Source of the DNA: Kangiella sp.
GTDB lineage: Bacteria; Pseudomonadota; Gammaproteobacteria; Enterobacterales; Kangiellaceae
NCBI RefSeq assembly: GCF_014762745.1
Contig: NZ_JABURJ010000036.1
Span: 1 to 39,436 of the forward strand
Length of the DNA stretch: 39,436 nt
Reading direction: 5' to 3'
The notes below the pieces were generated by a model. The model was not told the DNA's origin and made no database searches. It saw only the letters and a program-made list of their open reading frames with translations. Position 1 is the first letter of the stretch. The number at the start of each line of letters is the position of its first letter. Shown one piece after another: positions 1,405-5,829 of this stretch. Position numbers and translations under genes: made by a program.

Positions 1405-1565
1405 CGAAATACATCCCTGTATTTCGCTAAAGCCAGCGTATCTTCACTCCGCTGTTCAAATTTGTTCCAGACAAATTTGTCTTTCATATAGGCACCACAA
1501 AATCATCAGGAACGATTTTGAATAGCGAAGCTAGCCCGAAGGGTGAAGTACAAGGATGTACTTCA
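1405..1565. repeat. Inverted pair of GGA-loop two-hairpin modules
   Basis: Four hairpins. (1) CGAAATACA (1405-1413), TCCC, TGTATTTCG (1418-1426). (2) CAAATTTGT (1457-1465), TCCAG, ACAAATTTG (1471-1479). (3) CAAAATC (1498-1504), a 9-base loop with AGGAA, GATTTTG (1514-1520). (4) TGAAGTACA (1544-1552), AGGA, TGTACTTCA (1557-1565). The GGA of hairpins 1 and 2 is on the minus strand and that of 3 and 4 on the plus strand. Each strand, read 5' to 3', has a long-stem hairpin, the linker TTTGAAYAGCGRAG, then an ACARGGATGT hairpin. The two halves are therefore diverged inverted copies of one module. Both ACARGGATGT loops match the CsrA SELEX consensus RUACARGGAUGU over all 12 positions (plus 1548-1559, minus 1422-1411). 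The structures are seen directly; any role in protein binding is inference. Confidence 0.7.
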
Positions 1566-3701: not shown

Positions 3702-3905
3702 ATGAAAAATTTAGGTTCTTTTATCGCAATATTGGGGCTTGCTTCAATTGCACTGTTCTTTTTTGATTATGAGTTAAAAATTCTTGGCTGGATTAATAAC
3801 TGGGGCGAGAACATAGCATGGACAATACGCGGAGGCTTAGTAGTTATTGGTGCACTTTTATTTTTTATGGCACCTTCTGATAAAGAGCCAGAAGAAACGG
3901 CTTAA
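3702..3905 (+). CDS. Small two-helix membrane protein
   Basis: 67 residues with two hydrophobic segments: about 5-24 (GSFIAILGLASIALFFF) and 43-58 (GGLVVIGALLFFMA), joined by an amphipathic stretch with several Trp, and ending in an acidic tail (SDKEPEETA). Predicted inner-membrane protein with a short hairpin topology. GGGGAA lies about 6 bases before the ATG, and a strong terminator follows the stop, both of which support a real gene. I recognise no named family; small membrane proteins of this design are common and mostly uncharacterised. Confidence 0.75.
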   Translation: MKNLGSFIAILGLASIALFFFDYELKILGWINNWGENIAWTIRGGLVVIGALLFFMAPSDKEPEETA

Positions 3906-3923
3906 ACAAGCTATATATCTACT

Positions 3924-3952
3924 AAAAGCCTGATCATCTGTCAGGCTTTTTT
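3924..3952 (+). terminator. Intrinsic terminator after the small membrane protein
   Basis: AAAAGCCTGA (3924-3933), 7-base loop, TCAGGCTTTT (3941-3950) continuing into a run of six T. It begins 18 bases after the stop at 3905. Confidence 0.9.
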
Positions 3953-4027
3953 GTGGCTGGAAAGTTTATTAGATGCTCAGGCTAATATAGGCTATGACCA
4001 CCAGAGTAAGCCGAAACTTGAATCTGA

Positions 4028-4113
4028 CTGACAGGGACGTCAGGAATGACGAAAATGCAGGAGCAATTTTCGGTCTGCATTTTCGGCACTTTCGCTATCT
4101 GATCTCCAGAGAT
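4028..4113. repeat. GGA-loop hairpin module upstream of the duplicated segment
   Basis: CTGAC (4028-4032), loop AGGGAC, GTCAG (4039-4043); then linker GAATGA and CGAAAATGC (4050-4058), loop AGGA, GC-A-ATTTTCG (4063-4072, one bulged base). A third, ATCTCCAGAGAT (4102-4113), carries GGA on the minus strand. The first part, TGAATCTGACTGACAGGGAC (4019-4038), recurs exactly at 5071-5090, just upstream of the second 523-bp copy, but at a different spacing (1052 bases rather than 976). Confidence 0.65.
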
Positions 4114-4340
4114 GGTTCAAATCCTGTCTTGGCTATCAGTTCTGAGGGTCTTAAGGGCGCAGAGTTTTGCTCCTCGGCAACCGCTCCTGCGTTGCTCTAA
4201 CTCCTGCATCCATGCAGTCGTGCAAATTCTGCACTTCAACCATCTGACCTCCATGGATGGAGGAAATGCAGAGATTTGTCGGGAACAAATCCTGCCCTGG
4301 TGCTTGTCGAACGTGTTCTCCTGCCCCTTTCAGATGACAT

Positions 4341-4370
4341 AAAAAAACCCGACCTGATGGTCGGGCTTTC
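4341..4370 (-). terminator. Intrinsic terminator inside repeat block A
   Basis: Read on the minus strand: GAAAGCCCGACC, loop ATCA, GGTCGGGTTTTTTT. Plus-strand arms are CCCGACC (4348-4354) and GGTCGGG (4359-4365), with the A-run 4341-4347 giving the U-tract. It lies downstream of the first tRNA-Glu terminator, which suggests either read-through or a separate transcript starting in the hairpin block. An identical copy is at 5317-5346. Confidence 0.75.
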
Positions 4371-4560
4371 TTAATGTGGCACTGACCCACAGGGATGTGG
4401 GGAATGCAGCAACAATGCCGGGAGCATTGCACCACAGGCACTTCCTTCGGTCGGCTGTCCGTAGGGGAGGCAGAATTTTGCTCCATGCAAATTCTGCACT
4501 TCCGCCATCCATGGCGGTCGTCGAATTGTTTAAGGGCTCCGCTGCAAAATATCCAGATAT

Positions 4561-4588
4561 AAAAAAACCTGGCATAAAGCCAGGTTTT
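4561..4588 (-). terminator. Terminator of tRNA-Glu copy A
   Basis: Minus strand AAACCTGGC, loop TTTAT, GCCAGGTTT followed by a run of T (plus-strand A-run 4561-4567). It begins about 8 bases after the tRNA 3' end. Confidence 0.88.
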
Positions 4589-4595
4589 ATTTATA

Positions 4596-4671
4596 TGGCA
4601 TCCCGTAGGGGAGTCGAACCCCTGTTACCGCCGTGAAAGGGCGGTGTCCTAGGCCTCTAGACGAACGGGAC
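4596..4671 (-). tRNA. tRNA-Glu(TTC), copy A
   Basis: 76 bases with encoded CCA. The anticodon arm is CCGCC-CTTTCAC-GGCGG, giving anticodon TTC, and the T arm is AGGGG-TTCGACT-CCCCT. D-loop and overall sequence closely follow E. coli tRNA-Glu. The acceptor stem is GTCCCGT / ACGGGAT, so the first pair is a G1-U72 wobble, where E. coli has G1-C72. The gene has its own promoter (4708-4736) and its own terminator, unlike copy B. Confidence 0.97.
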
Positions 4672-4707
4672 ACAATGTTTGAAACTGTTCTCTCAAACGC
4701 GGGCGCA

Positions 4708-4736
4708 ATAATAATGCCCCTCCCCTCGTTTGTCAA
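4708..4736 (-). promoter_or_regulatory. Strong sigma-70 promoter for tRNA-Glu copy A
   Basis: Minus strand TTGACA (4736-4731), 17-base spacer, TATTAT (4713-4708), followed by the GC-rich discriminator TGCGCCCGCG. A consensus -35 with a GC discriminator is typical of stringently controlled stable-RNA promoters, so repression by ppGpp is expected (inference). The 5' leader would be about 30 bases. Confidence 0.85.
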
Positions 4737-4910
4737 AAAAATTATGGGGATTTTTTTGTTTTTTTCAGTTTTACACGCAAAATGACTATAAATCAGTCAG
4801 ATAGGTTAAGAAAGGTACAGCTCAGGCAAAGTCATGTCATACTGAAGAAAGTCAGACGATCAAAGAAAATTCAGACTCATCTAATAAATAGCAGAAGCCA
4901 CGAAAAGTCA

Positions 4911-4942
4911 CTGGATCCCGCGGTCACAGCCGCGGGATGACG
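4911..4942. repeat. REP-like palindrome, inverted relative of 1324-1348
   Basis: ATCCCGCGG (4915-4923), loop TCACAG, CCGCGGGAT (4930-4938). Its reverse complement begins GTCATCCCGCGG, the same outer sequence as the element after asnS but with a different inner stem and loop. Confidence 0.7.
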
Positions 4943-5316
4943 AGGTTTAGGTTTAACGGTCTGGCTACCAGGGATTCTCCACCCCCCATACAGAATGCAT
5001 AGATGGAAAAAGCCCAGCATAAGTAGCCTAGGTCAATATAGCGCTAGCTCTTCCGGGGGAGGCCGAAAACTGAATCTGACTGACAGGGACATGGGGAATC
5101 AAGTACTAACTTTCATTTATTAGGGCTTTAGGGCGCAGAGTTTTGCTCCTCGGCAACCGCTCCTGCGTTGCTCTAACTCCTGCATCCATGCAGTCGTGCA
5201 AATTCTGCACTTCAACCATCTGACCTCCATGGATGGAGGAAATGCAGAGATTTGTCGGGAACAAATCCTGCCCTGGTGCTTGTCGAACGTGTTCTCCTGC
5301 CCCTTTCAGATGACAT

Positions 5317-5346
5317 AAAAAAACCCGACCTGATGGTCGGGCTTTC
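5317..5346 (-). terminator. Intrinsic terminator inside repeat block B
   Basis: Identical to 4341-4370: GC-rich 7-bp stem with loop ATCA and a U-tract on the minus strand. Confidence 0.75.
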
Positions 5347-5536
5347 TTAATGTGGCACTGACCCACAGGGATGTGGGGAATGCAGCAACAATGCCGGGAG
5401 CATTGCACCACAGGCACTTCCTTCGGTCGGCTGTCCGTAGGGGAGGCAGAATTTTGCTCCATGCAAATTCTGCACTTCCGCCATCCATGGCGGTCGTCGA
5501 ATTGTTTAAGGGCTCCGCTGCAAAATATCCAGATAT

Positions 5537-5564
5537 AAAAAAACCTGGCATAAAGCCAGGTTTT
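5537..5564 (-). terminator. Terminator of tRNA-Glu copy B
   Basis: Identical to 4561-4588: 9-bp stem AAACCTGGC / GCCAGGTTT with a U-tract on the minus strand, ending the presumed tRNA-Ala to tRNA-Glu transcript. Confidence 0.88.
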
Positions 5565-5571
5565 ATTTATA

Positions 5572-5647
5572 TGGCATCCCGTAGGGGAGTCGAACCCCTG
5601 TTACCGCCGTGAAAGGGCGGTGTCCTAGGCCTCTAGACGAACGGGAC
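5572..5647 (-). tRNA. tRNA-Glu(TTC), copy B
   Basis: 76 bases, identical to copy A, including the encoded CCA and the G1-U72 acceptor wobble. It lies 182 bases downstream of tRNA-Ala. I see no strong promoter in that spacer, so co-transcription with tRNA-Ala is likely. Confidence 0.97.
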
Positions 5648-5829
5648 ACAATTCTTACTTTTTACAACTAATAGTATTTTGCTGTTAATGCGAGGCGAAT
5701 AGTGAGGAAGTTTCTCCTGCATATCTATGCACTAACAACTTTACTTACTTCTCTCGAAATACGCGGCAGTTTCGAGGGCCGTTTACATCAGTAAACAACT
5801 GAGAAACTAACAAAGTAGTTCGAAAAAGT
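5648..5829 (-). other. Spacer between tRNA-Ala and tRNA-Glu copy B
   Basis: 182 bases, long for a tRNA operon. It contains two small palindromes, TGCATATCTATGCA (5718-5731) and GTTTAC-ATCA-GTAAAC (5781-5796). They lack the GGA loop and T-tract, and may act as processing hairpins in the precursor (inference). Confidence 0.45.

Follow-up and report, generated by a model that had tools for sequence, protein, structure and literature searches.

The small RNAs CsrB/CsrC and RsmX/Y/Z display several GGA motifs in hairpin loops and in other single-stranded parts, and each is one transcribed gene. In the portions of the literature accessible to us, the CsrB repeats are given as CAGGA(U/A/C)G (PMC7652899) and the RsmE optimum as (A/U)CANGGANG(U/A) (PMC6849547). 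Accessible accounts of SELEX for CsrA report RUACARGGAUGU, mostly placed in hexaloops of hairpins that mostly have four or fewer contiguous pairs, and describe CsrA bridging as needing 10-63 nt between sites. Binding of CsrA to paired GGA hairpins is known from CsrB and RsmZ, and the available text on TwoAYGGAY (RF01731) and Bacillaceae-1 (RF01690) proposes it for their GGA-loop hairpins from two motif matches each (PMC4333381). Dispersed hairpin-forming repeats are also known. The R0/R2/R178 intergenic repeats of Pseudomonas fluorescens, another gammaproteobacterium, comprise five families with inverted repeats round a variable core, as far as the accessible description goes, by which alone we compare them (PMC2718517). 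REP/BIME/REPIN elements associated with RAYT proteins are short intergenic palindromic repeats that occur in mixed orientation and form composites. REP/RAYT repeats have a conserved tetranucleotide of the GTAG type at the stem foot. Among the matches listed from the open-licence literature, judged by title or the start of the abstract, none described a dispersed repeat made of paired GGA hairpins.

We analyzed a 39,436-nt contig of Kangiella sp. (NZ_JABURJ010000036.1, positions 1 to 39,436; hereafter the window) that carries such a repeat. The five modules described in an earlier note on this DNA are all present in window 4019-5652, with A, B, and C on the plus strand and D and E on the minus strand, and they are copies of a dispersed, structured, mobile repeat family of Gammaproteobacteria of about 49 nt, a larger observation than the one first stated. 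The repeat unit consists of a short hairpin of 5-6 bp with the loop CANGGANG, a short linker that often contributes a third GGA, and a longer hairpin whose loop is NGGA. The family consensus is TGAC-NNN-CANGGATG-NNN-GGAATGCAG-hairpin 2 (GGA loop)-CTG. Unlike CsrB/CsrC and RsmX/Y/Z, the modules are dispersed on both strands and have no Rfam match; unlike REP/BIME/REPIN elements, they conserve loop and linker while their stems covary.

Module A (4025-4072, plus strand; 38.8 bits with model R1, described below) consists of hairpin 1 at 4028-4043, with GGA at 4035-4037, the linker GGAATG, and hairpin 2 at 4050-4072 with the loop AGGA at 4059-4062, although its minimum-energy fold prefers an alternative long pairing over hairpin 2. 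Module B (4245-4294, plus strand; 43.4 bits) has hairpin 1 at 4248-4263 with the loop TGGA and hairpin 2 at 4268-4294 with the loop CGGGA. In module C (4383-4429, plus strand; 44.8 bits), hairpin 1 lies at 4386-4401 (ACAGGGATGT), and hairpin 2 at 4413-4429 (loop CGGGA) was identified by reading and is absent from the computed fold. Module E (4470-4520, minus strand; 41.1 bits) has hairpin 1 at 4502-4517 and hairpin 2 at 4470-4497 with the loop ATGGA. The common two-hairpin layout proposed earlier holds, except that module D (4159-4219, minus strand), which model R1 did not list, is a composite: beside hairpin 1 at 4204-4217 it contains a nested hairpin at 4177-4195, whose loop includes AGGA, and a remnant arm of the outer hairpin 2 at 4159-4173. 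By reading, this nesting is of the same type as in loci L288 and L103. The linker is similar to the GAATG or GAAGTG-like sequence reported before, and usually overlaps the third GGA (GGAATG, GGAAATG, or GGAAGTG). Compared with 200 dinucleotide shuffles, fold z scores were -3.57 for A, -2.92 for B, and -3.89 for E; with scores of -0.51 and -0.62, modules C and D are singly no better than chance.

Part of the block has been duplicated in tandem at an offset of 976 bp (window 4147-4671 and 5123-5647), giving two tRNA-Glu genes and doubling modules B to E. The second copies of B (5221-5270, plus strand), C (5359-5405, plus strand), and E (5446-5496, minus strand) are recognized by model R1, and that of D lies at 5135-5195 on the minus strand. 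The sole second occurrence of module A is a remnant with a broken stem (CTGACAGGGACATGGGG) at 5077-5099 on the plus strand, found by repeat comparison within the window. Two loci in relatives (L076 and L079) share the neighborhood of the duplication and differ in module content.

A blastn search with the window block as query returned further copies in the source genome (2.79 Mb, 146 contigs). We then used model R1, built from 11 training copies and restricted to hairpin 1 and the linker because the first alignments misplaced hairpin 2. In the source genome it listed 18 places, 7 on the window contig and 11 elsewhere, of which the 11 training copies match by construction. The model search of host and relatives that the earlier note had suggested recovered copies in 16 of 20 genomes of the genus (E 0.001), 31 of 61 genomes of relatives (E 0.05), and at least 45 of 370 genomes of the class (E 0.0001), each count including the source genome; the last is a lower bound because at most 20 candidates per genome were scored in the class-wide search. 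A sequence pattern with three stem pairs left free, GACNNNCANGGAYGNNNGRARTGCNG, had 68 matches in 26 of the 370 genomes, and its reversed control had none in the table of the same genomes. A pattern that set no conditions on the free pairs found at least 117 stretches in named genomes. The 80 of these with titles include Pseudomonas, Methylomonas, Methylobacter, Zooshikella, Shewanella benthica, Microbulbifer, Vreelandella, Oceanisphaera, and many uncultured Gammaproteobacteria. Three of the 80 titles fall outside the Gammaproteobacteria: the stems are incompletely paired in those titled Synechococcaceae (L114) and Phyllobacterium (L131), and the module is fully paired in a contig titled as an alphaproteobacterial MAG (L159). 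A blastn search of the phage collection gave no match.

Copies may be crowded: a 9-kb span of one strand at L072 (G058:C1:1239000-1258000) carries numerous modules, and L077 has tandem copies at 50 bp. Cassette (attC) arrays were considered for the module clusters in relatives and dropped on reading L072-L081. Separately, two genomes have modules about 0.5-0.7 kb past the 3' ends of 5S rRNA genes (L073 and L155).

The claim that the stems are under selection for a single-strand structure is supported by their covariation. The three free pairs of stem 1 were all formed in 62 of the 68 copies matching GACNNNCANGGAYGNNNGRARTGCNG, window copies included, compared with a shuffled mean of 30.6 and a maximum of 41 in 2000 shuffles. 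Counting distinct strings only, they were formed in 40 of 44. In a genome-scan sample, 90 of 101 distinct copies were paired, 80 of them by Watson-Crick pairs, with nine different triplets. Both stems covary in an alignment of 48 copies of one geometry, chosen out of 96 distinct 49-nt copies for having GGA in one set position and a CTG-like foot. Pairing is present in 94.0% of its pair cells, and both sides have changed in 117 cells, against a shuffled mean of 38.7. Every slid version of this alignment was far worse. A four-pair foot of hairpin 2 together with the CTG-like end was found in 47 of 104 copies (shuffled mean 6.2). A looser pattern in viral contigs provides a built-in contrast, since stem 1 was paired in 16 and unpaired in 21 of its 37 distinct matches. 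As a test of strand, stem 1 mismatches were G-T rather than A-C in 11 vs 6 and 12 vs 5 cases, which is suggestive only.

Hairpin 1 carries the loop CANGGANG, in which neither N is constrained. When the loop itself was left free and only outside anchors were used, CANGGANG occupied 18 of 20 eight-letter loops, or 18 of all 23 matches; the three remaining matches, of other lengths, look like chance. The base preceding GGA in hairpin 1, which the pattern does not fix, was T in 43, A in 26, G in 21, and C in 10 of 100 copies. The loop of hairpin 2, also unfixed, contained GGA in 78 of 100 copies. In modules A-E, the two GGAs start 24-28 nt apart, about 26 nt. Compared with the CsrA/RsmE site, the core CANGGANG is present in those 18 of 20 loops and in 19 of 21 opposite-strand loops described below, and the outer A/U and U/A occur in some copies only.

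No overall sense-strand bias was detected. Beside 3' gene ends, sense and antisense copies numbered 31:40 in the named genomes, 7:3 in the source genome, 20:15 in relatives, and 0:4 in viral contigs, and between tandem genes 28:32, as judged with a crude ORF caller that placed 40 of 204 copies inside ORFs of at least 150 aa and 24 of 204 at 200 aa. Replication-strand bias, assessed by local GC skew, was likewise not found (74 vs 73).

We tentatively favor recognition by CsrA as the likeliest reason that the loops are kept while the stems drift with compensation, although we would place it slightly short of an even chance. The proposed link between GGA loops and CsrA is strengthened, because CANGGANG is free at exactly the two positions that are free in the RsmE consensus. 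A module copy would be transcribed within a UTR or a read-through transcript; a single CsrA dimer could then be held by its two hairpins, whose GGAs start about 26 nt apart, and the bound copy may act as a cis docking site or as a scattered decoy, with a presumed effect on genes. Docking of CsrA is consistent with the loop consensus, the paired sites within bridging distance, the presence of other GGA-paired families, and the presence of csrA in 55 of the 58 carriers that were searched, namely the full class-wide set of 45 and 13 of the other 30 among the carriers in relatives. No csrA match was found in the other three carriers (G166, G388, and G394; assemblies of 120-470 contigs), which argues against it, as do the lack of an overall sense bias, antisense modules in two Mu-like contigs, and composites with hairpins on both strands. 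Moreover, insertions into GGA loops would suit a recognizer acting on DNA, stem 1 is slightly longer (5-6 pairs) than most SELEX hairpins as described in the accessible accounts, and stems of about 8 bp or longer occur in the further families. As a separate observation, one genome (G401) had twelve CsrA-family matches, some partial.

The main rival explanation, credible but in our judgment somewhat doubtful, is that the modules are elements at the DNA level, with hairpins that would arise in cruciform or single-stranded DNA. A putative mobilizing enzyme would read their GGA loops, which would belong to the element and at the same time be what the enzyme targets; the likeness to CsrA sites would then be coincidental. 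The dispersal of copies on both strands with no overall sense bias and the tandem copies at 50 bp fit this explanation, and so do nested copies. L288 differs from the uninserted L282 by a clean 48-nt insert within the hairpin 2 GGA loop, with 0 mismatches in 62 flanking bases and at most one ambiguous base as a target duplication. A related insert occupies the homologous hairpin 2 loop in three Zooshikella copies (1-2 mismatches of 60), and in L009 the hairpin 1 loop is interrupted by a 49-nt module (2 mismatches of 58). In a third family (L347, L358, L365, and L367), a different 24-nt repeat (TGTGACCNAAGGGAATCCCTTTAG) occupies a GGA loop, with 2-4 mismatches of 45. Since 48-49-nt copies sit in the GGA loops of other modules, the modules move, and the earlier alternative of a structural DNA repeat stands in part, as one linked to transposition. 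As a test for MITEs, the five nested copies of 48-49 nt were inspected for target-site duplication, and none was found beyond one ambiguous base. The apparent preference for loops is biased, however, because the search would miss nested insertions into stems. Against this explanation, no mobilizing gene emerged from the 30 fetched Y1_Tnp loci, local GC skew showed no replication-strand bias, and it leaves unexplained why the loop varies at precisely the positions where the CsrA consensus does.

Mobilization by a Y1 transposase of the RAYT kind, the way REP/BIME repeats of enterobacteria and Pseudomonas are moved, would account for dispersed palindromes in mixed orientation, but is already largely refuted and now seems very improbable. 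Y1_Tnp had 53 matches among 14 carrier genomes, occurring in 12 of the 14, and one broken Y1 frame (G058:C1:1252641-1252997, outside the fetched loci) is separated by about 0.3 kb from two modules, in a region rich in them. However, none of the 30 Y1_Tnp loci fetched of the 53 contained a type-I module, with 5 chance CAGGATG hairpins in their 98,962 bases; by eye, none of the other matches lay within 1.5 kb of a module among the modules listed. G013 (12 copies) and G060 (8 copies) had no Y1_Tnp match, and the Y1 transposase genes of the source genome (L002 and L003) are flanked, by eye, by different repeats of their own, of the GGATGGGTTACGC and GGTGCGTC types. In the modules, the foot reads TGAC and the linker GGAATG; the search pattern itself sets both.

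A single structured RNA gene of the CsrB/RsmZ kind, built of modules downstream of tRNA-Glu, seems highly unlikely, for although D and E share the strand of the tRNA and are, by reading, downstream of a hairpin resembling a terminator, A, B, and C are on the opposite strand and modules also occur alone elsewhere. At gathering score, Rfam matched only tRNA in the whole window, and the CsrB, Rsm, and TwoAYGGAY models had no match in 16 loci. Up to E 10, window 3900-5700 gave 59 weak matches, none of them CsrB, Rsm, or TwoAYGGAY, the last of which shares GGA-loop hairpins with the modules according to the accessible text. A decoy RNA gene, one reading in the earlier note, is therefore unsupported, because the modules are dispersed, without overall sense bias, on both strands and without such a match.

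Docking of CsrA and a DNA enzyme that reads hairpins could both be true at once. Paired GGA hairpins also occur beyond this family. A SELEX-like pattern had 32 matches in the source genome, compared with 5 for the control, and two further dispersed families there (window 1405-1565; loci L342-L371) combine a CANGGATG hairpin with another GGA-loop hairpin, of the AAATTTGTCTGGAACAAATTT and AAAATCGTGGATGATTTT types. In the window, the second family occupies 1405-1479 on the minus strand, with a hairpin with the loop CTGGA at 1457-1479 and a long hairpin around CAGGGATG at 1405-1426, and 1498-1565 on the plus strand, with an imperfect hairpin AAAATCATCAGGAACGATTTT at 1498-1520 and a hairpin around CAAGGATG at 1544-1565. 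An upstream hairpin of at least 6 bp was present in 28 of 30 contexts of the two families, and its loop contained GGA in 20 of 28 and TCC in 1 of 28; for 1498-1565, the count picked another hairpin, which was not scored as GGA. Where the stem was at least 8 bp, the loop contained GGA in 20 of 22, compared with 12 of 195 (TCC 19 of 195) in control hairpins from the same loci, which required 8-bp stems rather than 6 bp and came from partly overlapping loci. Because the copies of any one family are related by descent, these counts are not independent events. The CANGGATG hairpin of the second family and the partner hairpins of both families each have a stem of about 8 bp or longer.

In G278 and G375, the module lies inside a larger composite with an additional GGA hairpin on the opposite strand. 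The loops of these hairpins read CANGGANG in 19 of 21 and varied at both N's, among the 13 of 14 G278 and 8 of 10 G375 loci caught by the expression. Because the hairpins lie on both strands, no single transcript displays all of them.

A broader proposal, which we consider rather unlikely, is that in gammaproteobacterial genomes several unrelated mobile families converged on paired CsrA-type hairpins, forming a scattered system that seeds CsrA sites in cis and a distributed reservoir for CsrA. Dispersed repeats are seldom tied to a defined RNA-binding protein. If the modules bind CsrA, mobile repeats would shape the regulon of a global regulator, and the amount of transcribed repeat would set the pool of free CsrA. 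If they do not, a mobilizing enzyme of a class that reads hairpin loops is still to be found.

Mu-like phage contigs carry the modules too. The paired viral rows number 21, related ones included; 8 are sense and 13 antisense. In two Mu-like contigs, L236 (2926, 3860, and 9251) and L231 (123 and 13444), all five modules run antisense to most of the phage genes, and in four of the five the second hairpin is itself a CANGGATG hairpin. By PHROGs and Pfam, L236 encodes MuA- and MuB-like proteins, and L231 a portal, protein F, and terminase. The contig L227 (module at 1633) resembles these two, a likeness noted without a protein search.
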